This document shows positions 1,221-63,092 of a stretch of DNA of 64,000 bases, one piece after another. The DNA lies in the NCBI GenBank assembly GCA_020630775.1, contig JAHDIN010000003.1, positions 62,001 through 126,000 of the forward strand, written 5' to 3'. The position numbers and the translations under genes were made by a program. The stretch's first letter is position 1. Each line of letters begins with the position of its first letter. A model generated the notes under the pieces. The model worked only from the letters and a program-made list of their open reading frames with translations, did not search any database and had not been told where the DNA came from. Origin of the DNA: Saprospiraceae bacterium. GTDB taxonomy: Bacteria > Bacteroidota > Bacteroidia > Chitinophagales > Saprospiraceae.

Positions 1221-2333
1221 TTAAAGGTTCTTTAAGTATTGCGAAGGCGTTTGGTTAGTGATCTTTTTAAATACCCTGTTAAATGATGCTTTAGAATTAA
1301 AACCGGACTCTTGGGCTATTCCTAGAATACTAAGGTTTTTTGAATCACCATTTTTTAGTCGTCTCTTCACTTCTTCAACTCTATAGTTGTTTACAAAGTC
1401 ATAGAAACTTTGACTTAGATCCGCATTTAAAATTTTCGAAATTCTATACGTAGGAATGCCGCTTTCTGTCGATAGTTTGTTAATGGATAGCAATGGATCT
1501 AAATACAATTTCTTTTCAGCCATAGTTTTCTTTAACTGCTCTATATCAACATGATTGGTAGTGATGCTTTGTTCATTTGTTTGCTTAGGAAAGCTTATCT
1601 TTTTTGGCGTATTGTCTTCGGTCGCTACTCTGAAAATATCTGTTCTAGTAGCGGCAATGTAGGTCAATATGAATAAAAAGACGCCTAGAAAGGAAAGAAC
1701 ATAGTAATCGTATAGCCAAGTCTTATGTGTTGTATTAAACTCGTTGTAGATGAATCCAGAAAGAGCTAGTATCCAAAGTAGAATCGCTACAATAGTAATC
1801 CAGCTTAACCAAAGCAAATTGACTTTTTGCTCATAGGAATAAGCATTTAATAATTCCTCTCGATACTTTTTAAGCAACTGCAATGTCGCAAATAGATAAA
1901 AAGGTGTAATGAAAAGTTTAATAAAAGGATAGCCTACATGTTTTGAATCTAAAAGAACCCAACCAAATAAAATAGGTGAGACGAGTATTAAAAAGAAAAA
2001 CAAAAATGGGAGAAAGTGCCAGGATTCTTTAATGTCAAATTTAAAATTATCTCTAGTTAGAGATTTGGTATACAGATATAATAGCGGAGGGTAAAGTAAT
2101 GGGATAGCATAGTTCAACTCCGAAAAAAAAGCTTTGTAATAAAATGACTGACTATCAAAAAAATTGAAAACAAAAATGCTATTTATGGTAATTAATATGA
2201 AAATGGCGGCTAAAAATAAATGCTCATACTTTTTATCCTTTTTCCTTAAAAGTAGTAAGGATAATAAGGCAGAAAACGCACCTGATATGACAAATAAATA
2301 TTGCATTAGATTAACTAACATAGGTATAGTCAT
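1221..2333 (-). CDS. AraC-family transcriptional regulator with N-terminal multi-TM region
   Basis: Hydrophobic N-terminal half; C-terminal HTH IAQESGFNSKASFNRVFKKITNQTPSQYLKN. ORF track starts at 2387, but MTIPM at 2333 avoids overlap with the divergent gene and its -7 box. Confidence 0.88.
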   Translation of the reverse strand: MTIPMLVNLMQYLFVISGAFSALLSLLLLRKKDKKYEHLFLAAIFILITINSIFVFNFFDSQSFYYKAFFSELNYAIPLLYPPLLYLYTKSLTRDNFKFDIKESWHFLPFLFFFLILVSPILFGWVLLDSKHVGYPFIKLFITPFYLFATLQLLKKYREELLNAYSYEQKVNLLWLSWITIVAILLWILALSGFIYNEFNTTHKTWLYDYYVLSFLGVFLFILTYIAATRTDIFRVATEDNTPKKISFPKQTNEQSITTNHVDIEQLKKTMAEKKLYLDPLLSINKLSTESGIPTYRISKILNADLSQSFYDFVNNYRVEEVKRRLKNGDSKNLSILGIAQESGFNSKASFNRVFKKITNQTPSQYLKNL

Positions 2334-2374
2334 CTCAAATTTATAATTTATTAGTATAGAGTAGAGAAGTCTCT

Positions 2375-2382
2375 TAAATTTG
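2375..2382 (+). promoter_or_regulatory. Bacteroidota-type -7 box (TAAATTTG) for the M20 peptidase gene
   Basis: Matches TAnnTTTG, 20 nt upstream of ATG at 2403; overlaps the ORF-track GTG start. Confidence 0.45.
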
Positions 2383-2402
2383 TGCATTCAAAAATTAGAG
2401 AA

Positions 2403-3803
2403 ATGAAATCAGTTCACACATACATTACAAAGAATAAAAAGCGATTTCTCGATGAATTGCTTGATTTTTTAAAGATTCCGTCAATAAGCGCAGATCCTAA
2501 ATACAAAAAGGATGTTAAGAAAGCGGCTGATTTTCTAAAGATTAAAATGAAAGATGCTGGTTTGGATAAGGTGAAAATCTATGCAACCAAAGGACATCCT
2601 ATTGTGTATGGTGAAAAAATAATTGATAAGAAATTGCCTACTATTTTAGTGTACGGGCATTACGACGTTCAGCCACCTGATCCATTAGAATTATGGAATA
2701 GTGGTCCATTCGAACCTGTAATTAAAAAAACAAAGAAGCATCCTAAAGGCGCAATTTATGCCCGAGGAGCATGTGATGATAAAGGCCAACTTTATATGCA
2801 TGTAAAAGCTTTTGAAGCTATGCAAAAAGAAAATGCGCTTCCTTGTAATGTCAAATTTATGATTGAAGGTGAGGAAGAAGTTGGTTCTGATAATTTAGAG
2901 ACTTTCTGTAAAGCAAATAAGAATCTTTTAGCTTCAGATATGGTTTTGATTTCAGATACTTCAATAATTGATAATAAAACACCAAGTGTTACAGTCGGTT
3001 TGAGAGGACTTAGCTATGTCGAAGTAGAAGTGACAGGACCCAACAAAGATTTACATTCGGGTGTATATGGAGGAGGTGTGGCGAATCCAGTAAATGTTCT
3101 TTGCGAGATGATCGCATCAATGAAAGATAAGAATGGGAAAATCAATATTCCAGGATTTTATGAAGATGTAAAAAGGTTGTCTAAAAAAGAAAGAGTACAA
3201 ATTAATAAAGCACCTTTCAGTGTTACAAAGTATAAGAAGGAATTAGGTATTAAAGATATTCAAGGAGAGAAAGGCTATTCTACGATTGAAAGAACTTCTA
3301 CACGACCAACCTTAGATGTTAATGGTATTTGGGGAGGCTACATCGGTGAAGGTGCTAAAACGGTATTGCCTAGTAAGGCCTATGCAAAGATTAGTATGCG
3401 ATTGGTGCCCAACCAACACCCTGATAAAATCACTAAGTTATTCGAAAGACACTTTAAGAAGATTGCTCCTAAAAGTGTACAGGTAAAAGTGAGTCCACAC
3501 CATGGAGGATTTCCTGCCGTGACACCTACAAATACTGTCGAGTATCAAGCAGCTCATTTAGCTATGAAGGATACTTTTGGTAAAGCACCAATCCCTGTTA
3601 GAGGAGGTGGTAGTATTCCTATAGTAGCTATGTTTGAAAAAGTTTTTGGCGTAAAATCTGTATTGATGGGTTTTGGATTAGACTCAGATGACATACATTC
3701 TCCTAATGAACATTATGGATTATTTAACTATTACAAGGGTATAGAAACAATACCTTTATATTTTAAGTACTACGCAGAGTTAAAATCTAAATCAAAGAAA
3801 TAA
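2403..3803 (+). CDS. M20 family dipeptidase
   Basis: VYGHYDVQPPDPLELW, GACDDKGQ, EGEEEVGS metal-binding motifs; ORF track begins at GTG 2382, ATG 2403 preferred. Confidence 0.92.
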   Translation: MKSVHTYITKNKKRFLDELLDFLKIPSISADPKYKKDVKKAADFLKIKMKDAGLDKVKIYATKGHPIVYGEKIIDKKLPTILVYGHYDVQPPDPLELWNSGPFEPVIKKTKKHPKGAIYARGACDDKGQLYMHVKAFEAMQKENALPCNVKFMIEGEEEVGSDNLETFCKANKNLLASDMVLISDTSIIDNKTPSVTVGLRGLSYVEVEVTGPNKDLHSGVYGGGVANPVNVLCEMIASMKDKNGKINIPGFYEDVKRLSKKERVQINKAPFSVTKYKKELGIKDIQGEKGYSTIERTSTRPTLDVNGIWGGYIGEGAKTVLPSKAYAKISMRLVPNQHPDKITKLFERHFKKIAPKSVQVKVSPHHGGFPAVTPTNTVEYQAAHLAMKDTFGKAPIPVRGGGSIPIVAMFEKVFGVKSVLMGFGLDSDDIHSPNEHYGLFNYYKGIETIPLYFKYYAELKSKSKK

Positions 3804-4447
3804 TGAAACTTTTTTGTTTTTTAATCACCTTTTTATTTTCAATTAATATATTTTCCCAAATGGATTCAGTTAGTTACAGTGCAGGATTGATCATTGCAAA
3901 AAATTTAAAAACTCAAGGCTTTAAGGATCTTGATGCCCAGTCTTTTATGGATGCTATCAATGATATATATCAAGATAAGCCAGCTATAATAACAATGGAT
4001 CAAGCGAATAGAAACTTTAAAGAGCATATCGAAAAAGTTCAAAATGAAATGCACTATGAAAATAAAGCTAAAGGCGAGGAGTTTTTAACTCAAAATGCTA
4101 AACGCGCAGAGGTAAATGTTACTGATTCTGGATTACAATATGAAGTCTTAGAGTCTAGTGCAGAGACAGTGCATCCAACATTGATGGACAAAGTCCGAGT
4201 ACACTATCATGGTACTTTGATCGATGGTAAAGTTTTTGATTCTTCAGTGGATAGAGGCGAACCTATTTCCTTCCCGTTAAACGGTGTCATCAAGGGATGG
4301 CAAGAAGGGGTGCAGTTGATGACTGTAGGTTCCAAATATAGATTCTTCATCCCTTATGATTTAGCATATGGCGAAAGAGGTGCTGGAGGTTCTATAGGCC
4401 CATATTCAGCACTTATTTTTGATGTTACTTTATTGGCTATTGAATAA
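3803..4447 (+). CDS. FKBP-type peptidyl-prolyl cis-trans isomerase (Mip-like), secreted
   Basis: Signal peptide; N-terminal dimerisation region; VRVHYHGTLIDGKVFDSS...FFIPYDLAYGERGAGG. Confidence 0.93.
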   Translation: MKLFCFLITFLFSINIFSQMDSVSYSAGLIIAKNLKTQGFKDLDAQSFMDAINDIYQDKPAIITMDQANRNFKEHIEKVQNEMHYENKAKGEEFLTQNAKRAEVNVTDSGLQYEVLESSAETVHPTLMDKVRVHYHGTLIDGKVFDSSVDRGEPISFPLNGVIKGWQEGVQLMTVGSKYRFFIPYDLAYGERGAGGSIGPYSALIFDVTLLAIE

Positions 4448-4450
4448 TCG

Positions 4451-5134
4451 ATGGTTTTTGACATCATCTCAGCTGTTCCAGATTTATTAGAAAGTCCTTT
4501 TAGTCATTCAATATTAAAGCGAGCCGTTCAGGCGGGTCTTTTAGAGGTTAATGTTATTGATCTAAGACCATACGGTAAAGGTAAACATCAACAAATAGAT
4601 GATTACCAATATGGTGGGGGAGCGGGCATGGTAATGATGCCGGAGCCCTTAGATAATTGTATCGAGACACTCAAGCAAAAAAGAGATTATGATGAAATCA
4701 TTTTTTTGAGTCCTGATGGCACTACTTTTAATCAATCTATCGCTAATAAATTGTCTCTCAAGAATAACATAATGCTCATCCTGGGGCATTATAAAGGTAT
4801 CGATCAAAGGATAAGAGATATGCATGTGACGATGGAATTATCCATTGGGGATTATGTGCTTTCAGGAGGAGAATTGCCAGCTGCTGTAGTTGTTGATGCT
4901 GTGGCAAGACTCATTCCAGGTGTGTTAAATGACGGGACCTCGGCGCTTACTGACTCACATCAAGATAATTTATTAGCGCCACCTGTTTACACGAGGCCTG
5001 CTGAATTTAAAGGTCATAAGGTGCCAGAAATATTATTAAGCGGCAATGATAGGCTTATTGATGAATGGCGTAATGACCAAGCAGAAGAGAAAACAAGAGC
5101 AATAAGACCAGACTTACTCAGTGAGGAAGATTGA
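4451..5134 (+). CDS. trmD: tRNA (guanine(37)-N1)-methyltransferase
   Basis: DYQYGGGAGMVMMPEPL, LGHYKGIDQR, SIGDYVLSGGELPA. Confidence 0.96.
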   Translation: MVFDIISAVPDLLESPFSHSILKRAVQAGLLEVNVIDLRPYGKGKHQQIDDYQYGGGAGMVMMPEPLDNCIETLKQKRDYDEIIFLSPDGTTFNQSIANKLSLKNNIMLILGHYKGIDQRIRDMHVTMELSIGDYVLSGGELPAAVVVDAVARLIPGVLNDGTSALTDSHQDNLLAPPVYTRPAEFKGHKVPEILLSGNDRLIDEWRNDQAEEKTRAIRPDLLSEED

Positions 5135-5214
5135 TTCTAATTAAACTGGATAGATTTTTTAGAACGTTTATTAAATGACATCCAATTAGAATGCAATAAT
5201 ATCTTGAATGCTTT

Positions 5215-5982
5215 CTATTGAACCATCGCCAATAAAATAAAACCTAAAGACCTAATCAAAATAATACCATCCACACCACCAGAATAAAAGTAGTCAGATT
5301 TATGTTTCAAGCAGTAGCTAATAAGCAAAGCTGACAATGCAAGTATTAAAATTGCGCCTGTTAGAAAATTAGTAATAGGAACATATTCAATCATTCTGAT
5401 ATATGTCCAACATAAGGCACTCAAGAAAATTAGAAAATAAATCAGCCTTATACTAAGTTTTCGACCCAGAGAGTTGGGAATTGTTTTGACACCCATTTTA
5501 TGGTCGATATCTTGATCTCGAATATCGAAAGGTAGAGTAAGCGCGAGAATAAAAAGAAACCTTTCAATCAATATAATAGGTATAATATCTTTAGAAATGG
5601 CTTGGTCAACTAAAGTCCAAAGGCCTAAATATGACCATACAATTGCTATGAGGAATATTTTAATAAAATTTAAATCCCGTAATCTATTTTGTTTGGGTAA
5701 AATAGGCAGAATGTATAATATAGAAATCAAGCCCATTGGGATTAAGAACGTTATTAATGCTTTTCCCATAAGTACTGAAAATACAAGCGTACCCAATAGG
5801 CCAAAACAGCCATAGATTAGAATATGAGTTTTGTACTTCCTTATAACGGTGAATCGCCCCTCTTTGGCATTTTTTAATTTTTTGATCCCTACTATTCTAT
5901 GAATAGAATAAGTGAAAAGTGTAGCACAAAAAACCAAGAATAAGTACTTAATGTCTACATCAATCTGAAATATAAAATACAA
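5215..5982 (-). CDS. UbiA-like prenyltransferase family membrane protein (divergent)
   Basis: Multi-TM; second Asp-rich motif DIRDQDIDHKMGVKTIPNSLG present, first motif replaced by TYSIHRIVG. Confidence 0.7.
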   Translation of the reverse strand: MYFIFQIDVDIKYLFLVFCATLFTYSIHRIVGIKKLKNAKEGRFTVIRKYKTHILIYGCFGLLGTLVFSVLMGKALITFLIPMGLISILYILPILPKQNRLRDLNFIKIFLIAIVWSYLGLWTLVDQAISKDIIPIILIERFLFILALTLPFDIRDQDIDHKMGVKTIPNSLGRKLSIRLIYFLIFLSALCWTYIRMIEYVPITNFLTGAILILALSALLISYCLKHKSDYFYSGGVDGIILIRSLGFILLAMVQ

Positions 5983-6070
5983 CTCTGCAACGAATGCAGT
6001 TGCAACAAGAGAGATATGAAAACTTCCGTATAAATAAAGATTTAAAAGGTCTTTATATAAAGACCTTACC

Positions 6071-7156
6071 TTAGAAGTATTTGAAATTATGATTCTTTTT
6101 AATTGCTAATAATGAGTAGTAAATCAATCGTGTCACATTTTCAATATCATCATGGTGTGCCATCTCCACTGTCGTATGCATGTACTTTAATGGTAATGAA
6201 ATAAGCACAGACGGTACCCCTTGATTTGAATAGGCAAATGCATCCGTGTCAGTACCTGTGGTCCTCGAAGAAGCAGATCTTTGAAACGGTACCTTATTCT
6301 TATTCGCAGCGTCTATAACTAGTTGAAGCAACTTGTTATGCACAGCTGGAGCATATGTCAATACAGGGCCTAAACCACCTTTTAAGTCTCCTTGTTCTTT
6401 TGCTTTATAAAGTGGCGAGGAAGTGTCATGAGTAACATCGGTGATGATGGCAACATCAGGTTTGATGCGATGAGCGATCATTTCAGCACCTCTTAAACCA
6501 ATTTCCTCTTGAACCGCATTTACTATGTATAATGAAAAGGGGAGCTTCTTCTTATTTTTCTTAACTAATTTGGCCACCTCAGCAATACAAAACCCACCCA
6601 TCTTATTGTCAAGTGCTTTTCCTGCGTACCATCTGTTATTGAGTTTTGTTAATACATCATCGAATGTAACAACAGATCCAACATGCACACCCATAGATAG
6701 TACCTCCTTCTTGTCTTTAGCACCTACGTCAATAAAAATATTTTCTAGCTTAGGTGATAAGTTGGCGTCTTTGCCTCTTCTTACATGAATGGCAGGCCAT
6801 CCAAAGACCCCCTTGACAACGCCTTTTTCCGTGTGGATGTTCACCCTTTTTGATGGAGCAATTATATGGTCTGATCCTCCATTCCTAATAACACTTATAT
6901 AGCCATCCTCAGAGATGTAGTTTACATACCATGCAATCTCATCGGCATGCGCTTCTATGACCACCTTGTAATCTTGTCCAGGATTAATAACACCATACGC
7001 AGTGCCGTAATCATCCAAGTAAGATTCATCGACAAATGGATTGATATAATCTAACCACACTTTCTGACCTTCTGCTTCAAAACCAGTAGGAGATGTTGCA
7101 TTAAGGTAGTCGTAAAGAAAACTCTCAGAATTTTTATTAATAATTTTCATTGTCAA
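6071..7156 (-). CDS. M42 family metallopeptidase (glutamyl aminopeptidase/endoglucanase-like)
   Basis: ATSPTGFEAEGQ, EAHADEIAWYV, ALDNKMGGFC, VQEEIGLRGA, DVTHDTSSP. Confidence 0.93.
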   Translation of the reverse strand: MTMKIINKNSESFLYDYLNATSPTGFEAEGQKVWLDYINPFVDESYLDDYGTAYGVINPGQDYKVVIEAHADEIAWYVNYISEDGYISVIRNGGSDHIIAPSKRVNIHTEKGVVKGVFGWPAIHVRRGKDANLSPKLENIFIDVGAKDKKEVLSMGVHVGSVVTFDDVLTKLNNRWYAGKALDNKMGGFCIAEVAKLVKKNKKKLPFSLYIVNAVQEEIGLRGAEMIAHRIKPDVAIITDVTHDTSSPLYKAKEQGDLKGGLGPVLTYAPAVHNKLLQLVIDAANKNKVPFQRSASSRTTGTDTDAFAYSNQGVPSVLISLPLKYMHTTVEMAHHDDIENVTRLIYYSLLAIKKNHNFKYF

Positions 7157-7803
7157 ATTTCTTGTCTTGTATACACCTCAGACCATTGAACGGGGTCGTT
7201 GTTCCAAGAATCTAGGATTTGTTTTTCTTCTTCATTTATATAGCCAGAACTTAACGCTTCGGATAGCAATGACTCATAATTTGTTAATGTATCCATTGGT
7301 ATAGAACGATCAGTAAATATATCATAAGCTTTTTGAAATCCATAAGTGAAAATAGCCATAACGCCAATAACGTTACCGCCAGCTTCAATTAAGGCATCAC
7401 AAGCTGCAATGCTACTTTTTCCTGTCGAAATAAGGTCCTCAATTACTAAGATTTTAGAACCTGACTTCAGCTCACCTTCTATTTGGTTTTGTCGTCCGTG
7501 TCCTTTTGATTTTGACCTTACGTAAATAAAGGGTTTGTCTATCATATCCGCAAGTAAGGCGCCATGTGGTATTCCAGCGGTTGCAACACCAGCTACAACA
7601 TCAAATGCACCAAAAGCAAACAATTTGTCTTTCATGGCATTTTTGACTTCCTTCCTAATTTCTGGATAGGATAATAAAATTCTATTGTCACAATAAATCG
7701 GCGATTTTAACCCTGAGGCCCATGTGAATGGATTTTTAGGTTGTAACTTTACTGCCGATATTTGGAGTAATTTCTTAGCGATTCCAAGAGCTACAGTACT
7801 CAT
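7153..7803 (-). CDS. pyrE: Orotate phosphoribosyltransferase
   Basis: PFTWASGLKSPIYCDNR, GVATAGIPHGALLAD, VLVIEDLISTGKSS (PRPP motif). Confidence 0.95.
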   Translation of the reverse strand: MSTVALGIAKKLLQISAVKLQPKNPFTWASGLKSPIYCDNRILLSYPEIRKEVKNAMKDKLFAFGAFDVVAGVATAGIPHGALLADMIDKPFIYVRSKSKGHGRQNQIEGELKSGSKILVIEDLISTGKSSIAACDALIEAGGNVIGVMAIFTYGFQKAYDIFTDRSIPMDTLTNYESLLSEALSSGYINEEEKQILDSWNNDPVQWSEVYTRQEI

Positions 7804-15486: not shown

Positions 15487-16377
15487 ATGACAGCAAAAAA
15501 TTGGATATCTGCCATGAGACTCAGAACGCTACCTTTAGCATTAGCTTGTATTGGAATGGGCGCGTTTCTGGCTGGGGCTGATGGTAAATTTAATTTTACA
15601 GTTTTTTCTTTGTCATTATTGACCACGCTCCTTCTCCAAATATTATCCAATTTGGCTAATGACTATGGAGATGCAGTGCATGGGGCTGATCATGATCAGC
15701 GTAAAGGACCACTGAGACAAGTGCAATCTGGGGCAATTTCAAAAGCACAGATGAAAAATGCGATTATTCTATTCGTGGTTTTAAGTTTGATATCGGGCTT
15801 GTCTCTGCTTTATTTATCCGGAATTAGTCTTAAGGTATTCATAGTTTTTCTTGGTTTGGGCCTATTGTCTATTGGAGCGGCCATCTTGTATACAAATGGA
15901 CAGTTGCCTTATGGATATATTGGATTAGGCGATTTATTTGTCTTCCTCTTTTTCGGTTTATTAGGCGTTATTGGAAGCTATTACTTACAGACGCTTGATT
16001 TTGAATGGCGTCTTATTTTGCCTGCAACTAGCTGCGGTTTATTGACTGTAGCTGTATTAAATATCAATAACATCAGAGATATAGAATCAGATATTACAGC
16101 TGGTAAAAGATCTATCCCTGTAATGCTTGGTAGATCAAAAGCTAATATATATCATGCGCTTCTGCTTTTAGGTGGCCTTGCTTGTGCTATCATCTATGTT
16201 TTAATGGACTTTCAAGGTCCAAAGCAATTTCTTTTTTTATTGGTCTTGCCTCTTATGCTAATCAATAGCAAAGCTATATTTACGAAGCCTTCCGAACTAT
16301 TAGATCCCTATCTCAAGCAAATGGCGATTACTAGTTTATTGTTTGTATTAACATTCGGAATTGGGCACATTCTCTGA
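15487..16377 (+). CDS. menA: 1,4-dihydroxy-2-naphthoate polyprenyltransferase (menaquinone biosynthesis)
   Basis: RLRTLPLALACIGMGAFLA, NLANDYGDAVHGADHDQRKGPLRQVQSGAIS, NINNIRDIESDITAGKRSIPV. Confidence 0.93.
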   Translation: MTAKNWISAMRLRTLPLALACIGMGAFLAGADGKFNFTVFSLSLLTTLLLQILSNLANDYGDAVHGADHDQRKGPLRQVQSGAISKAQMKNAIILFVVLSLISGLSLLYLSGISLKVFIVFLGLGLLSIGAAILYTNGQLPYGYIGLGDLFVFLFFGLLGVIGSYYLQTLDFEWRLILPATSCGLLTVAVLNINNIRDIESDITAGKRSIPVMLGRSKANIYHALLLLGGLACAIIYVLMDFQGPKQFLFLLVLPLMLINSKAIFTKPSELLDPYLKQMAITSLLFVLTFGIGHIL

Positions 16378-55007: not shown

Positions 55008-56088
55008 ATGACTAAAGAGCAATTCAAAGAATTGACACGTCGTGCGGCGTCGTTAAGGAGCTATCTTTGACGTCGATAAACGACTTAATGAAATAGAAGA
55101 TAGAGAACAACAATCCGCAGATCCAAATTTCTGGAACGACCCTAAACGTGCAGAAGCCATAATGCGAGAGCTAAAAGGCCATAAGCTTTGGGTAGAAAAA
55201 TTTAAAGTTGTCGAAGATGCATTAGGCGAACTAGAAGTACTTGCTGAATTTCAAGATTTAGGAGAGACGACGGAGGAAGAAGTTAATGCACAATATCAGC
55301 AATCGTTAGATATTATAGAAGATGTCGAATTCCGATCTACTTTAGATCAAGAGGAAGACGAATTGTCTTGCCTGCTCGAAATCAACGCTGGAGCTGGAGG
55401 TACAGAAGCCTGTGATTGGGCAGAAATGCTTTACCGAATGTATGTCATGTACGGGGAGAAGACAGGATATAAAGTGAAAGAGTTAAATCGCGTTCACGGC
55501 GATGTCGCTGGCGTAAAATCTGTAGAGCTTGAATTGAAAGGCGATTACGCTTACGGTATGCTGAAAGGAGAAAATGGAGTGCATCGTTTGGTTCGTGTCA
55601 GTCCCTACAATGCTCAAGGTAAAAGAATGACGTCATTTGCTTCCGTTTTTGTGCATCCCGTTGTGGACTCAAGAATCGAGATTAATATTAACCCTGCCGA
55701 TTTAGATTGGGATACATTCAGAGCTTCTGGCGCCGGTGGTCAGCACGTCAATAAAACAGAGTCCGCTGTCCGTGTTCGCCACTTACCATCAGGTGTAGTC
55801 GTCGAATGTCAAGCCGAACGATCGCAGCATATGAACCGAGAAAAAGCTATAGAAATGCTTAAATCTCGTTTGTACGAAAGAGAGCTCGAAAAGAAACGTG
55901 CTGCCAAAAGTGAAACCGAAGCTGGTAAAATGAAAAACGAATGGGGTAGTCAAATCAGATCTTATGTACTTGATGATCGCCGTGTCAAAGACCACCGAAC
56001 CATGTATGAAAATCGTAATACAGATGCGGTGCTTAATGGAGATCTTGATGGTTTTTTGAAAGCCTTTTTAATGTGGGAAGGGAAGTAG
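55008..56088 (+). CDS. prfB: Peptide chain release factor 2, programmed +1 frameshift at 55065-55071
   Basis: ATG 55008 MTKEQFKELTRRAASLRSYL then CTT TGA C; +1 frame continues DVDKRLNEIEDREQQSADPNFWNDPKRAEAIMREL; downstream GAGGQHVNKTESAVRVRHLPSG. Confidence 0.95.
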
Positions 56089-56113: not shown

Positions 56114-56133
56114 GAAGCTGAAATTTTAGCTTC
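56114..56133. terminator. Palindrome at the convergent prfB / TonB-receptor junction, terminator-like
   Basis: GAAGCTGAAATTTTAGCTTC, near-perfect 20-bp palindrome overlapping the receptor stop codon. Confidence 0.45.
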
Positions 56134-58600
56134 TAAAACTTACCGTTATATAAAAATTACGGCCTTCCGATGGTATAATGCCAGGGCCAGGATATCCTGT
56201 AGCACGTCTTGTAAAGTAGCTGTGATCAAACAAGTTGTTTATTCCGGTTTTAATGCCGATCTTTTTGAAGTTATAACCCAATGTCCAGTCAGCAATTTGA
56301 TAAGCTGGAATCTCACCAATGATCCCACTTCGGGCACTAAAGTCAGGAGCAGCTCTCGAGTTTTGGACATCTGTATATTGTTCTGATAAATAAGTAAATT
56401 GAAGTTGGGTGTTGAAATTTTTAAAGCGAAAACCAATGCCAGATTTGATGTTTACAGACGGAATAAATTCTACTTTTTTACCTACGACATTGTTTTCCTC
56501 AGATTTTAGGTACTCGGAATAAGTGAAAGCAGCATTGACGAAAATATTCAAATCGAATGTTCTTTCATCTCCCTGGAGTGCCCGTCCTAAGTTTAAATTT
56601 ATGAGTGATTCCGTGCCTGTGATCATTGCTTGTCCAATATTCTTACGCACGCGATTAGCGCGGTTGTCTAAGATGATACCTATTCTGTCATTGTATAATA
56701 GGCCATATAATGTGGTATTGTATGAAAATACTTTTCCAAGTCGACCTCTAACTGTAAAATCTGCAGTCCAACCATTTTCATCATTGATGTCAGGGTCTAC
56801 AATAAAGGTAGGGTTGACCACTCGGATGTCACTAAAGGTTACAGATCTATAGTTTTGAGAAATGTTGAAAATATATTGTAATGCATCACTAGTGCTGTAG
56901 TTTATCCCTATTCCCGCTAAGGCAAATGTTCGGGTGAGTTGACGGTTGTCACTCAATTCTTGATTGTTGATAGGATTGCCAGCATTATCGAATACGACTC
57001 GATTGTAATTGCCTTTGGATTCTGTTTTTATATGTTCTATACGGATCCCTGGCGTAACAGATAATTTTTCATTTATATAGAAAATGTTTTCTGAGAATAA
57101 TGCAAGATTGAAATTGGGGAATTCAAAATTTGATTGATTGGGGTAGTCGCTGAAAGTATCACTTAGTAAATTGAAGTTGGCATCATTCGATAAAGAACCA
57201 GGACCTTGTAATGCGGTATTACTTGAGCGGAAGATTTTACTTCCTATTAGAAATACAGAACGCTTATCTTTTATTTGATAGCGATTGAGATAGCGGATTT
57301 CTGCGCCTATGTTTTTAAAATTACCAATGATTAGATCTCTTGGTGTGATGTATTGGCCATTTGTTGTTTGCTCGTCTAGTGCTGTGATAGGATTTTCGTT
57401 AAGTGCAATAGGATTGCCTCTAAAGCCCAACGATTTCCTTGAGGCACTTAAGCCGAATATATTAATGTTAAACGCCGATGTGTTATTAAGTGCATGGTCG
57501 ATTTTGACGTTGAATAAATTCCAGTTGACATCAAACCAGTTTCGGTCTCTTGTACTCTGCCTTGGATTTTCTTTGAACTGTTGGTCCGTTAATCCTCCTG
57601 CTTGCTTAGCTAAGTAATTGAAATTTGTCCATTCGAATGTAGCCTTGGTTTTATCTGAGAATTGATAAGCGACAGAAGTGTAAAGGTTGTTTAGTTCGTA
57701 CTCTGAATTGGCTCTAAAGCCATCACCTTTTCTGAAGTTATAGTAAATGTTTGCCGTTAGTTTTCCTTTATTTATGCCAAAAGAATTAAAGGAATTTAAA
57801 GTGTTGAAGCTCCCATATGTTTGGTTTGAGATAATCTCTGTCTTTTTAAAAGACGGTATTTTTCTTAATCTAAAATCTATTAAGCCCCCAAATTGAGTAC
57901 CGTATTGTAAGGAGCTTGCTCCTCTTAAAATTCTTATTTCTTCAATCGCCTCAGATGGGGGAGTGTAATAATTTTCTGGATAACCTAAGACATCCGCGCT
58001 TATGTCATAACCATTTTGTCTGGTGTTAAAATTTGAAGTACGATTGGGATCAAGACCTCGACCACCAATATTAAGTTGTAGACCACCGTCATTGCCTTCA
58101 TAGATGTTAAGTCCAGAAACTTGAGCATATACTTGCCTGCCATTATTGAGGGCTAGATTGCCTTTGACTTTATCCATAACAATAACTTCAGACTTTTTAC
58201 CTGCGAATATGGAAGTGCCTTCAACATCATTGAGAGGTTTAATAGCAAATAATTCTTCTCGATGTGCTGCGATTTCTATGGTGCCCATTTCTAAGTTTAA
58301 GGGCTCTAACGCAATGGTAATAAAAGAGTCTCTTATGGCATTTATTTCTACGAATAAGGTTTTGAAGTTTTCATTAAAGAAGGTGAAATGTTGTCTCCCA
58401 GATTCAATTTTTTCGAATTTGAAGTATCCCTCAACATTGGAGCTGCTCAAGGTTGATTTTTGATGATTAAAAATTTCTACTCCCGGTAATGCATGACCTG
58501 TTTCACTTGATTGTATAATGCCTTCAATTTTTACTTGACTAAAAATTGAATGGATCAAGAATAAAGCTAGAACTGTTAATATGAATCGAAAGCTATTCAT
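56126..58600 (-). CDS. TonB-dependent receptor, FecA-like, with carboxypeptidase-D-like N-terminal domain
   Basis: KIEGIIQSSETGHALPGVEIFNH; LQLNIGGRGLDPNRTSNFNTRQNGYDISADVLGYPENYYTPPSEAIEEIRILRGASSLQYGTQFGGLIDF; C-terminal beta-strand FYITVSFRS. Confidence 0.93.
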   Translation of the reverse strand: MNSFRFILTVLALFLIHSIFSQVKIEGIIQSSETGHALPGVEIFNHQKSTLSSSNVEGYFKFEKIESGRQHFTFFNENFKTLFVEINAIRDSFITIALEPLNLEMGTIEIAAHREELFAIKPLNDVEGTSIFAGKKSEVIVMDKVKGNLALNNGRQVYAQVSGLNIYEGNDGGLQLNIGGRGLDPNRTSNFNTRQNGYDISADVLGYPENYYTPPSEAIEEIRILRGASSLQYGTQFGGLIDFRLRKIPSFKKTEIISNQTYGSFNTLNSFNSFGINKGKLTANIYYNFRKGDGFRANSEYELNNLYTSVAYQFSDKTKATFEWTNFNYLAKQAGGLTDQQFKENPRQSTRDRNWFDVNWNLFNVKIDHALNNTSAFNINIFGLSASRKSLGFRGNPIALNENPITALDEQTTNGQYITPRDLIIGNFKNIGAEIRYLNRYQIKDKRSVFLIGSKIFRSSNTALQGPGSLSNDANFNLLSDTFSDYPNQSNFEFPNFNLALFSENIFYINEKLSVTPGIRIEHIKTESKGNYNRVVFDNAGNPINNQELSDNRQLTRTFALAGIGINYSTSDALQYIFNISQNYRSVTFSDIRVVNPTFIVDPDINDENGWTADFTVRGRLGKVFSYNTTLYGLLYNDRIGIILDNRANRVRKNIGQAMITGTESLINLNLGRALQGDERTFDLNIFVNAAFTYSEYLKSEENNVVGKKVEFIPSVNIKSGIGFRFKNFNTQLQFTYLSEQYTDVQNSRAAPDFSARSGIIGEIPAYQIADWTLGYNFKKIGIKTGINNLFDHSYFTRRATGYPGPGIIPSEGRNFYITVSFRS

Positions 58601-59960
58601 TGAAGGGGAGTATAAAGTTTTTTGGTTTAATTGAGTTTTTTACTTTCAACAAATCAACATTGGGATCAATGTATTGTTGGCTTGGACGACCATTCAATGC
58701 TACATAACTATCTACGTAAACTTCAACATGTTCATGTCCCTGAGATTCAAAGTGTCTACCTAAAAAATGTGCATACTCAATAATGAAGTCTGGTTGTGTG
58801 GCCATTTGCTTTTCTTGAAATGTAGTTAGGAAATCGTCATTTTGAACATAAAATCTTTTTCCAGTTTCACCATTAACAATTTTAAATTGGGCGTCTCCTG
58901 CCTTTTCCATCAGCATGACACGCCATGAAAAGCGATAGCCCTCCTCTGTCCAAAATACATTTCCTGGATACAACAAATAACGCCAAGGAAATAAAAGTTG
59001 GATAATTATGACAATACATAATACAGGCTTTGAATATTTAAATCGACGTCTCTTAAAGTAGGCGACACCATTTTTAAATGGATCTATGGCTATTTTAAAA
59101 AGCCTTGAGAATGCAGTGATTATTTTTTCATGTAATGAATCATCAAAAAAAATAAGCGTACTGATGATCATAATAAATGGAAACATACCTATCGGAAAAA
59201 GGAACCGGGTAAGAACATGAAAAAATAAAACGAAGAGGAATGCAATCGGCCTAGTTTTGCGCCACATTAAAAAGAAGACGATAAAAATATCATAAGCGGC
59301 ACCACCCCAACTAAATAAATAATGAACCCACGTGTCATTAAGTAAGCTACCAATCAAAGGCAGATGGGTTTTGCTTGATAACCAAATGCCTAATGGCAGT
59401 GCTTCTACCATCCAATCATAATTGAGTTTGGCTAATCCTGCATAGATATAGACGATGCTCAATATAATCTTCAAAACGTTGATATGCCATTTGTCGATAT
59501 ATTCTGATCTTAATTCGACGTTTTTGTAGGCATCTAAAGAAAAATAACAGTGGGCAGGTAGCCATATAAGCATGAAGGATATAACTGAAATAAAATAATA
59601 GTGATTTAAATAAGTCGTCTTATCCATCAACTCTATGTATACAAAAGTCAAAAAGAAGCTGGTGGTTGCTAGTGAATATTTATATCCAATAGCTATACAC
59701 AATGCTGAAAGTCCACATACGATAAATAAAAGATAGGTCCATACTCCAGGGACCTGAATAAAGTCAAAACCTAAATAATGAAAGTGAAACTTTGGTTCTA
59801 TATACAATGATTCAATCCAGCCATGATACCAAAATCGAATTAACGAATAGACCATCATGAAGCCAAATAAAATACGAAAGACTGCCAATGGAGCAGCCTT
59901 TGTTCTATCATTTGAAAAAATACCTTGTATTATCTTTTGAAAATTAATCGCCATCTGCAT
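58593..59960 (-). CDS. HTTM / vitamin-K-dependent gamma-carboxylase-like integral membrane protein
   Basis: TM-rich N-terminal half with TYLNHYYF and YAGLAKLNYDWMVEALPL; lumenal-type C-terminal YRFSWRVMLMEKAG...EVYVDSYVALNGRPSQQYIDPNVDL. Confidence 0.9.
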   Translation of the reverse strand: MQMAINFQKIIQGIFSNDRTKAAPLAVFRILFGFMMVYSLIRFWYHGWIESLYIEPKFHFHYLGFDFIQVPGVWTYLLFIVCGLSALCIAIGYKYSLATTSFFLTFVYIELMDKTTYLNHYYFISVISFMLIWLPAHCYFSLDAYKNVELRSEYIDKWHINVLKIILSIVYIYAGLAKLNYDWMVEALPLGIWLSSKTHLPLIGSLLNDTWVHYLFSWGGAAYDIFIVFFLMWRKTRPIAFLFVLFFHVLTRFLFPIGMFPFIMIISTLIFFDDSLHEKIITAFSRLFKIAIDPFKNGVAYFKRRRFKYSKPVLCIVIIIQLLFPWRYLLYPGNVFWTEEGYRFSWRVMLMEKAGDAQFKIVNGETGKRFYVQNDDFLTTFQEKQMATQPDFIIEYAHFLGRHFESQGHEHVEVYVDSYVALNGRPSQQYIDPNVDLLKVKNSIKPKNFILPFNE

Positions 59961-61053
59961 CGACGAAATCTACTTGGATACTTAGTGCTTGCAACATATC
60001 TACTTTAAGCAGAATAACCGCTTTTTGTAATTCATCGTAAGCTTCAAGCATTTTTGAATTGTCAAGTTCTACTTGATTTTTAAAACTATCATCTAAGGCA
60101 TTGATTTTTGTTCGCGCCACATCCCATTGAGATACGATTCTTGAAGATATGTTGGGTGTGTTATTTATATCGGTGATATAGTCTGTATAGTCCATTAGAC
60201 TTGGTCCGTTTACGGAACTGTCATGACTTTCACCTTTGAAAAAGCGTTCTACAGTTTCTAACCCCTCTAAGCAAAGTATTTTAGAAAATTGTGAAGAGTA
60301 GGGGGCTTCAACAGACTGACTTATCAGAGATCCTGAAAATACTCCAGCAGGAATGCCAATTTTACCTGCTCTCAAAAACCTCTCGTAATAAAAAATAAGA
60401 TCATTCACCATTTTGTCTACTGAGGCAGTCGCAGATGATCCGTTATTAGATATAAAATTATCTCTATAGCTATTTTCCCAATCAGTGAAGACAATATCTG
60501 TTAATGTATTAAGCCTTAGTATTAGCTCTATGAGGTATGTCTTATATTCATTATCTTTTAATACATCAATGATTTCTTGATCGGTATCGGCTAAACCATA
60601 TAATAGGTAGTCTAAAGCAGGAAAACCTTGAGCATCAAAATTTGATGGCAGCTCTAGATTGTATGTGCCGTTTTGAATATTCTCTTGAATCAATGACGCA
60701 TCTATTGGATAGATATTTGTATAATTTCTGAATCCTATTTCTTCTGCTTTCCCAATTTCAAACATTGATACTTTTTGCCAAGAAGCATAAGCTTCGAGAT
60801 ATTTATTCCTTAAATCAACCAATTCATTTATTGCTGGATTATTATAAAAAGTATTTCCAGCTTCAAGAAGAAGCTCCAGAGATCTACGGTACTCTTCATA
60901 AGATGGAATTATGATTTGGTCGGCCCAAAATTCTAGCATGCCCTTTCTGTCAAAATCATCTGCTAGTGGAGAAGGCCCTTCTCCTTCGTCAGAACATGAA
61001 GAGAAGCTAATTAGTATTGATAATGCTATAATTGAAGTTAAGTATCTCAACAT
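59944..61053 (-). CDS. Imelysin-family (M75-like) lipoprotein
   Basis: Lipobox ISFSSCSDEGEG; WADQIIIPSYEEYRRSLELL; GFPALDYLLYGL motif region; overall imelysin layout. Confidence 0.87.
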   Translation of the reverse strand: MLRYLTSIIALSILISFSSCSDEGEGPSPLADDFDRKGMLEFWADQIIIPSYEEYRRSLELLLEAGNTFYNNPAINELVDLRNKYLEAYASWQKVSMFEIGKAEEIGFRNYTNIYPIDASLIQENIQNGTYNLELPSNFDAQGFPALDYLLYGLADTDQEIIDVLKDNEYKTYLIELILRLNTLTDIVFTDWENSYRDNFISNNGSSATASVDKMVNDLIFYYERFLRAGKIGIPAGVFSGSLISQSVEAPYSSQFSKILCLEGLETVERFFKGESHDSSVNGPSLMDYTDYITDINNTPNISSRIVSQWDVARTKINALDDSFKNQVELDNSKMLEAYDELQKAVILLKVDMLQALSIQVDFVDADGD

Positions 61054-61067
61054 TGTATCAATTTATT

Positions 61068-62282
61068 TTATTCAGCAGCTTGTTCTATAGTGAAGCTAAA
61101 TTTGTTGGCTATAGCCTCAGATATTGCATTTAAAGTTTCGACTTCAACATCCCAAAATCCATTACCTTCAGTCAACATGTTTAAGAAATTATCTACTTCT
61201 TCTCTTGAGAAGTATGACTCGTTACTGTAAGCTTTTCGGCAAAACCTTAAGCTGTATATAAACCCAAAACCTTCTGATAAATCATGAAAGGCGGTTCCAG
61301 TTAATCCGTTTTCAAATGCCCTTTTACCTTGCTGCAGATAGTAAACTGCTCTAACACCTATAACCGTAGCAATTTTCTCTTTTATAATTTCTGCTTGTTC
61401 ATCTCTAGTATCGTAATCACCAGCAACAATAGCTGCTCGGCCCAGTTTAAATGCTTCAAATACATCTTGACTGATACCTGTAAAGTCAGAATCGTTATCG
61501 ACTCTAGCTAAATATTTATTTAAGAATGAATCGCTATTGCCAATAGCATCAACAGGGTTTGAACCGGCTGAAGCTGCTCCGAAGAGGTAGCCATAAGCTT
61601 CATCCCATTTATGCTCCATCGTTGTGTAATTTTGGCCTTCTTCCAAAATGCCATTGTCATTATTTGAGATATTATGGCCTTCGTCGAGAACCGATGTGCT
61701 CAAGTAATTATTGACCATTTGATCTATCATTAAGGCTCCGATAAGTGATTTGTTTACAGCTTGATTAAATTCAAGCCCCTTACTATTTACATACCTCGTA
61801 GCACTGCCATCTACAATTTGTCCTGCAATACCCTCGGATGCTAATTGGTTTTCATATGGAAAAACGTCTTTAACTTGAGCTGTTATCCATGCTTCGAAAT
61901 CTGCTCTTATTTGAGCTGTTTCTACTGTATTTGAAGAGAAAAAGTCTTTTGAAGCAGCTACCTTAGATTTGATGCTTTTTGTTGTTTCATTAAGCGCTGG
62001 ATTATTAAATGGACTAGCTTCTTGACCATTCGATTGTTGGTTCGCAAACATTTCTAATAATTGCTCTTCAGTCATTGAGAAATCCATCATAGCACTTATC
62101 AGTTCTTCTGACATTGCAATCCTTATCGATTGACCACCGTAATCGACCGTCGATTGACCGTTTCTTTCAAACGTGTAATCTATTGGATTATCAATCTCTG
62201 TTTCTGGCAAATTATCAGAACAAGAAGTAAAAATGGTTAACCCCGCGGTAACTAGTAAAAGAAGACAAATTATGCGGTTCAT
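61068..62282 (-). CDS. DUF4856 family lipoprotein
   Basis: Lipobox LTIFTSCSDN; YTFERNGQSTVDYGGQSIRIAMSEELISAMM; GLEFNQAVNKSLIGALMIDQMVNNYLS; HKWDEAYGYLFGA. Confidence 0.85.
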   Translation of the reverse strand: MNRIICLLLLVTAGLTIFTSCSDNLPETEIDNPIDYTFERNGQSTVDYGGQSIRIAMSEELISAMMDFSMTEEQLLEMFANQQSNGQEASPFNNPALNETTKSIKSKVAASKDFFSSNTVETAQIRADFEAWITAQVKDVFPYENQLASEGIAGQIVDGSATRYVNSKGLEFNQAVNKSLIGALMIDQMVNNYLSTSVLDEGHNISNNDNGILEEGQNYTTMEHKWDEAYGYLFGAASAGSNPVDAIGNSDSFLNKYLARVDNDSDFTGISQDVFEAFKLGRAAIVAGDYDTRDEQAEIIKEKIATVIGVRAVYYLQQGKRAFENGLTGTAFHDLSEGFGFIYSLRFCRKAYSNESYFSREEVDNFLNMLTEGNGFWDVEVETLNAISEAIANKFSFTIEQAAE

Positions 62283-62297
62283 CGAAGCTATTTTTAT

Positions 62298-62312
62298 TTA
62301 GATTAAGTCTAA
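62298..62312. promoter_or_regulatory. Palindrome upstream of the DUF4856-imelysin-VKGC-TonB operon, candidate metalloregulator box
   Basis: TTAGA-TTAAG-TCTAA, 5-bp perfect arms, 16 nt upstream of the start codon at 62282. Confidence 0.4.
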
Positions 62313-62516
62313 TTAAGAACAATATTAATACCTATTTCTGAAAATGTGTACTCAAGAATGTTCTTTTTTTGAGCTTTTAGGCGACATCTCTTTTTTTCTA
62401 AATTTTCGAAATCAGCTGATTGATACTAAACAGCTCTTTTGCAATGGATTAGGAATCTATTAACAAGGATGCTGATGGCACTTCCTTAAATTCAGCACAA
62501 CTAATTTTACATTGTC

Positions 62517-63092
62517 ATGATGAAAATTTTGATTGTCATAATGGGATTTTTGAGCCTTTGGAGCTGCCAATCGGATTCAATAAAGGAAAGAGAACAATTC
62601 CTTAACTTAGAAGAAGAGGTGCAATCCTTGGTTAATGATTCATTGAAAAATATATTCCTTTTCAAAATTTGGGATGATGATCAGAATCCACGAAGATTGG
62701 ACCTTGTTGTCAATGAGCAAAGGAATATCAAAGAAATGGATTCGCTCTATCAGCTCAATTTAAAGCGCGTTGATTTATATTTAAATTATTGGGGATATCC
62801 AGAGCCCACAATATTCGGTGAAATTCCAGGCAGTGCCCCCATCACTGTAGTGCACCACGCACCAGATATACCCACAAGAGAGAAGTATTTTCCTGTTTTT
62901 TACAAGGCTTTCAAGGAAGGTAAAATAAGAGGGACAGGATTCACTTTTTATTTACAGAGATGGCATAAGATGAAGTTTGGGAAGAGAGTAGAATTTGATC
63001 GGCCATTTACGGAAGAAGAAGAACTTGAACAATTATACAAAAATCTGGGGTTGGACATATTTACATTAAATATGCAATACGGATTTGATTAG
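62517..63092 (+). CDS. Lipoprotein, probable DUF6624-like
   Basis: Lipobox LSLWSCQSD; NYWGYPEPTIFGEIPGSAPITVVHHAPDIPTREKYFPVFYKAFKEGKIRGTGFTFYLQR resembles DUF6624. Confidence 0.6.
   Translation: MMKILIVIMGFLSLWSCQSDSIKEREQFLNLEEEVQSLVNDSLKNIFLFKIWDDDQNPRRLDLVVNEQRNIKEMDSLYQLNLKRVDLYLNYWGYPEPTIFGEIPGSAPITVVHHAPDIPTREKYFPVFYKAFKEGKIRGTGFTFYLQRWHKMKFGKRVEFDRPFTEEEELEQLYKNLGLDIFTLNMQYGFD

Follow-up and report, generated by a model that had tools for sequence, protein, structure and literature searches.

A vitamin-K-dependent gamma-carboxylase homologue is linked to DUF4856, imelysin and TonB receptor genes in a probably iron-regulated operon of Bacteroidota

GGCX uses reduced vitamin K, CO2 and O2 to carboxylate glutamate, with Lys218 as the base, and in animals VKOR recycles vitamin K epoxide. 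To our knowledge, nearly all work on Gla concerns animals, although the enzyme that makes it has many bacterial homologues; the one from Leptospira is reportedly an epoxidase that has no carboxylase activity and is changed at the Lys218 position. That a VKGC homologue exists in Leptospira is mentioned in published work (PMC4555120). In human GGCX, N159 and H160 contact the substrate Glu, and the H160A mutation compromises carboxylation (PMC12589487). Imelysins are known from classical Fur-regulated operons (P. aeruginosa PA4370-PA4373; Leptospira lruB), in which an imelysin with a GxHxxE motif accompanies a di-haem oxidoreductase (DHOR); iron regulation and a non-His imelysin of the IPPA type also belong to these operons (PMC3143127; PMC13066512). 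Outer-membrane vesicles of Tenacibaculum are rich in a FecA homologue and in the imelysin-like lipoproteins that go with it (PMC10288586). A closely similar gene set is RAYM_09779-09794 of Riemerella anatipestifer, consecutive genes for a TonB-dependent receptor (TBDR), a VKGC, an imelysin and a hypothetical protein that are induced by iron restriction and appear in that paper only in a table (PMC5609570). No other paper in the open literature joined 'vitamin K-dependent' with imelysin, and none joined imelysin with HTTM or DUF4856; subscription journals and preprints lay outside the scope of this search, so novelty is provisional. The original prediction that no function had been assigned to such a cluster stands for the open literature, except that the gene set had already been listed, unremarked, in the Riemerella Fur regulon (PMC5609570).

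We analysed a window of 64,000 nucleotides from a Saprospiraceae assembly (54% complete). Four contiguous minus-strand genes at 56126-62282 encode a DUF4856 lipoprotein, an imelysin lipoprotein, a carboxylase homologue and a TonB receptor. The open reading frames lie exactly where they had been predicted, with overlaps between imelysin and carboxylase (59944-59960) and between carboxylase and TonB receptor (58593-58600). The features of the locus are as follows.

61068..62282, minus strand: gene 1, DUF4856 lipoprotein, 404 aa (PF16148, E 4e-142; lipobox Cys21 invariant)
59944..61053, minus strand: gene 2, imelysin-like lipoprotein, 369 aa (PF09375, E 8e-24; variant motif G-F-P-x-x-D replaces GxHxxE)
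58593..59960, minus strand: gene 3, vitamin-K-dependent gamma-carboxylase homologue, 455 aa (PF05090 and PF22777; GGCX, E 8e-45; AF2 model)
59142..59906, minus strand: HTTM membrane domain, residues 19-273 of gene 3 (Pfam PF05090, E 2.8e-77)
58599..59024, minus strand: VKGC lumenal domain, residues 313-454 of gene 3 (Pfam PF22777, E 2.3e-59)
59601..59603, minus strand: His120 codon, aligned with GGCX His160 of the Glu pocket (H in 143/143 relatives)
59427..59429, minus strand: Lys178 codon, aligned with the catalytic base, GGCX Lys218 (K in 143/143 relatives)
56126..58600, minus strand: gene 4, TonB-dependent receptor with a CarboxypepD-regulatory-like N-terminal domain, 824 aa (PF07715 Plug, E 1e-6; PF13715; TIGR01783 below cut-off)
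62296..62314, no strand assigned: Fur-box-like palindrome AATTAGACTTAATCTAAAT, 13 bases upstream of gene 1 (16/19 to the Riemerella Fur box; position conserved)

Because the internal gaps are only 14 bases or overlaps, there is no room for a hidden small peptide gene, and we rejected a peptide substrate encoded inside the operon. Beside the operon, prfB (release factor 2, 55162-56088) has an apparent programmed-frameshift site, AAGGAGCTATCTTTGAC, upstream at 55020-55090, an ordinary prfB feature.

The 455-aa protein belongs to the VKGC/GGCX family. A single-sequence search of PDB chains matched only GGCX (E 8e-45) and paired residues 17-440 of the query with 56-491 of GGCX, with 28% identity to the human protein (116 of 414 aligned residues) across the membrane and lumenal domains, and Pfam joins HTTM (PF05090) to the VKGC lumenal domain (PF22777) in this one chain, both far above cut-offs. 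An AlphaFold model built on an alignment of 47 relatives (mean pLDDT 88.2, pTM 0.89) retrieved nothing but GGCX from the PDB at E<=0.001, in 16 chains. The query-normalised TM score (TMq) was 0.78-0.83 for 14 of these chains; the remaining two, which lack substrate, gave 0.69-0.74. Segment 337-348 of the model has a pLDDT <50, so the linker with the Y342/V348 positions is poorly modelled. The claim of a full-length GGCX homologue is upheld by this homology and by a fold that matches only GGCX in the PDB. Likeness to human GGCX (PDB 9l6s, 9wfc, 9bvk) covers residues 56-491, the fold (TMq of up to 0.83), the catalytic base, the vitamin-K pocket and the Glu-contact residues N159/H160. In contrast to the human enzyme, the window protein has no C-terminal lobe beyond ~491 and is encoded in an iron-uptake operon. 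The Pfam match and the reading frame both end near GGCX residue 491, bar a short tail, leaving out the PBD-2 propeptide lobe, and F60 and F399 occupy the positions of the C99-C450 disulfide. Two vertebrate-type features, the two-lobed propeptide-binding domain and this disulfide, are therefore absent from the window protein. A simple reading of hydrophobic helices and charge predicts nine helices with the N terminus inside, and the lumenal domain and active site are predicted to lie on the periplasmic side.

To compare active sites, we placed human GGCX in one alignment with 124 relatives from operons and 19 that stand alone, taking residue roles from cryo-EM (PMC12589487). N159, H160, K218, W223, F286, H287 and F299 (GGCX numbering) are invariant in all of them, and N159, H160 and K218 correspond to N119, H120 and K178 of the window protein. 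The proposed alignment of H120 and K178 with H160 and K218 was thereby borne out, both residues being invariant in 143/143 relatives. The fold also superposes on GGCX, as a proposed structural test had asked; since the fold search gave TM scores rather than coordinates, the match of K178/H120 to K218/H160 comes from sequence alignment. The lysine retained here would set the window protein apart from the Leptospira homologue. The relatives do not conserve K217, the C99-C450 disulfide or R436, and the window protein carries the substitutions K217->A, N158->L, N290->T, M401->V and R436->Q; the operon group has T at N290 and V at M401, whereas the stand-alone group keeps N and M like the human protein. 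That the homologue is catalytically complete in its residue set is well supported by this alignment. A protein that has kept the GGCX fold and lost its chemistry, and that serves the lipoproteins or receptor as a structural or chaperone-like partner in the membrane, would fit conserved gene linkage taken alone, but is highly improbable given that widely diverged sequences retain the full catalytic set and that none of the 143 has a change at K218 or H160.

Across Bacteroidota, this order of genes is met far more often than chance would allow. With profiles built from the window genes, all four genes were found in order at 74 of the 80 nearest loci, a sample that consists of the best carboxylase matches and is biased to orthologues. 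A separate survey covered 297 genomes from across the phylum, of which 70 had the lumenal domain, 50 had DUF4856 and 46 had both, and in 46/46 genomes with both the two families lay <=5 kb apart (Fisher p 2e-31, shared ancestry ignored), in agreement with the predicted co-occurrence. Many genomes without a recognised DUF4856 have a lipoprotein-sized gene in its place with the remaining order kept; one such stand-in (L171) is DUF4856 by Pfam and others match nothing. The order is often retained even where DUF4856 has diverged nearly past recognition. In a tree of 78 sequences, the operon-linked carboxylases form one group of 50 (support 100/99), comprising 49 operon members and L215, whose DUF4856-imelysin pair lies ~67 kb off on the same contig; human GGCX falls outside this clade on a long branch, so its position is not to be over-read. 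The arrangement varies in places: in two Roseivirga genomes the DUF4856-carboxylase and imelysin-TBDR pairs occupy separate loci, L149 has no adjacent imelysin, and a 94%-complete relative (G047) has DUF4856-imelysin-TBDR with no carboxylase detected. At L202, a relative has DUF4856-imelysin-TBDR with no carboxylase between them or detected elsewhere in its assembly, a natural test of carboxylase-independent function.

Homologues of the stand-alone type occur elsewhere. A second carboxylase paralogue with the full catalytic set is found in Flavobacteriaceae (L112-L115, L140-L143), often between genes that we take, from reading their sequences, to be ribF and serS. Plasmid homologues of Paracoccus and Bernardetia were set aside, being of the stand-alone type with iron neighbours absent. 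The Paracoccus homologue (L222, 5446-7314), outside Bacteroidota, adjoins a divergent DCC1-like thiol oxidoreductase gene.

At some loci the carboxylase clusters with the classical imelysin-DHOR-imelysin operon, which differs from that of the window in having a GxHxxE imelysin and DHOR where the window has DUF4856. The carboxylase-carrying intermediates are L223 from Persicobacter (2189-7302), with the order imelysin, DHOR, variant imelysin, carboxylase; L229 (3243-10877), where the imelysin-DHOR-imelysin-carboxylase set is followed by a TonB receptor; and L230, which carries both gene sets. Throughout, the variant imelysin and carboxylase side by side are the most constant pair. Since DHOR lies beside the carboxylase in L223, L229 and L146, redox chemistry belongs to this context, and the homologue might perform menaquinol epoxidase or quinol-oxidase chemistry only, as a redox step in iron uptake (for example oxidising or reducing iron on the lipoproteins), without carboxylation. 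The rarity of VKOR, absent as a recycling partner from 58/61 relatives, would fit as well. We consider this decidedly unlikely, because the carboxylase homologue shows no evident site for haem or metal and never varies at H160, a residue that matters for Glu carboxylation (PMC12589487).

In both lipoproteins the lipobox cysteine never varies. The six positions after it hold two or more acidic residues in 93/105 DUF4856 proteins and 79/108 imelysins, a pattern that we take to resemble the Bacteroidota surface-export signal. The window imelysin belongs to the imelysin superfamily (M75; PF09375, E 8e-24), and the operon-imelysin profile matches 3n8u and 3pf0. In place of GxHxxE it has G143-F-P145-A-L-D148, and the motif His is absent in 126 of the 133 imelysins compared, all operon ones included. 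By its motif, the window imelysin fits the IPPA-type GxxxxE group (PMC3143127). The DUF4856 protein is modelled with a pLDDT of 93.7, and its fold search of the PDB returned no relative at E<=0.001; we rejected its assignment as a FEA1-related lipoprotein on a weak match (NF038033, 24 bits vs a cut-off of 250). The best NCBIfam match of the receptor is the TonB-siderophore subfamily TIGR01783 (E 1e-36, below cut-off). The label 'FecA-like' was only loosely right, and a FecA ferric-citrate receptor was rejected, the NCBIfam FecA model scoring 85 bits vs a cut-off of 1100.

We next consider regulation. Of the 19 positions in the palindrome at 62296-62314, 16 agree with the Fur box published for Riemerella, a score equalled by 3/500 shuffles, and a Fur box of at least 15/19 precedes 70/78 first genes vs 21/780 other upstream regions in the same loci. 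The operon is very probably Fur-repressed and induced by iron starvation. A divergent gene for an apparent lipoprotein of 191 aa (62517-63092), with a DUF6624 match at best sub-threshold, has the Fur-box intergenic region in common with the operon. In Riemerella under iron restriction, rises of 2.11-fold for RAYM_09779 (TBDR), 2.64-fold for 09784 (VKGC), 3.07-fold for 09789 (imelysin) and 2.41-fold for 09794 (hypothetical) were reported, and the genes were listed consecutively as Fur-regulated (PMC5609570 Table 4). Induction was still seen in the fur mutant (2.70-3.07; PMC5609570 Table 4), so regulation there is not purely by Fur. From its position, RAYM_09794 would be the DUF4856 protein. The Fur box, the lipoprotein signals and the Riemerella induction agree with the prediction of a surface metal-acquisition module, as regards an iron-regulated surface operon. 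Stand-alone paralogues elsewhere in Flavobacteriaceae would suit a neighbour gene with no functional tie to iron uptake, but that view is largely refuted, and has hardly any probability left, in light of the 46/46 adjacency, the one clade of operon carboxylases, the overlapping genes, the conserved Fur box and the response of the Riemerella genes to iron.

We then asked which glutamate might be modified. A glutamate conserved only with the carboxylase was sought in the imelysin and DUF4856 proteins and none was found; no modified site stands out. E224 and E249 of the imelysin are near invariant, but IPPA (3pf0) also has E224 and most GxHxxE imelysins retain E249, and we know of no carboxylase accompanying the 3pf0 imelysin. 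E337 of DUF4856 is present in 104/104 linked proteins and changed in 2/4 unlinked ones, which are divergent at many conserved positions. Our literature search found no reports of Gla in these operon proteins. As for the cofactor, menA was confirmed in the window, as predicted (15487-16377, TIGR00751, E 2.6e-85), and together with the kept quinone pocket it would fit menaquinol use. Given the rarity of VKOR in relatives, menaquinone epoxide would need another reducing enzyme or tolerance at low flux. COX1 is uninformative on O2 dependence because it is present in 70/70 carboxylase genomes but also in 286/297 overall. The absence of an evident glutamate site, the missing PBD-2 lobe and the stand-alone relatives that have the same active site but unrelated neighbours (ribF and serS, for example) could instead point to a small molecule being carboxylated or oxidised, such as a ferric-chelating ligand made or modified for uptake by the TonB receptor. 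This is unlikely, since N159 and H160, the residues in contact with Glu, never vary, other biosynthetic genes are absent from the operon and the linkage is to two lipoproteins rather than metabolite genes.

There is good support for the operon, for its link to iron and for an enzyme homologue that is catalytically complete. The likeliest reading is a gamma-carboxylase making Gla on lipoproteins, to which we give about an even chance. Our best explanation, evenly poised in our judgement, is an iron-regulated surface iron-uptake operon with a menaquinol-dependent gamma-carboxylase modifying the co-encoded lipoproteins; we infer the carboxylase activity, the identity of the substrate and Gla as iron ligand. 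The operon would serve iron acquisition at the cell surface under regulation by iron, very probably through Fur repression. The carboxylase homologue would be an inner-membrane protein whose active site opens toward the periplasm, and would use reduced menaquinone, O2 and CO2 as cosubstrates, as GGCX does with vitamin K. Glutamates of a co-encoded lipoprotein would be gamma-carboxylated, the first candidate being the imelysin, because variant imelysin and carboxylase are the most constant pair, and the second DUF4856. The modified lipoprotein would be exported to the outer membrane, where Gla could act as a malonate-like ligand for ferric iron that is handed on to the TonB receptor.

Provisionally new here are the gene order across Bacteroidota, the 46/46 linkage, the single operon clade, the Fur box and the joining to the classical imelysin operon. 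They tie a whole clade of bacterial carboxylase homologues with intact active sites to one iron-regulated operon across Bacteroidota, many marine species included, among them Zobellia uliginosa and a Leeuwenhoekiella. With two candidate substrates and a growth condition (iron starvation) named, bacterial gamma-carboxylation becomes directly testable. That aerobic Bacteroidota make Gla surface lipoproteins on iron starvation for metal capture, with menaquinol as the vitamin K cofactor, has in our estimate a little under an even chance. The findings suggest that these bacteria may chemically modify proteins to capture iron, and a use for menaquinone-dependent carboxylation that is unrelated to blood clotting. 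If this is true, gamma-carboxylation would serve bacterial metal capture, rather than only the calcium-dependent functions of animals.
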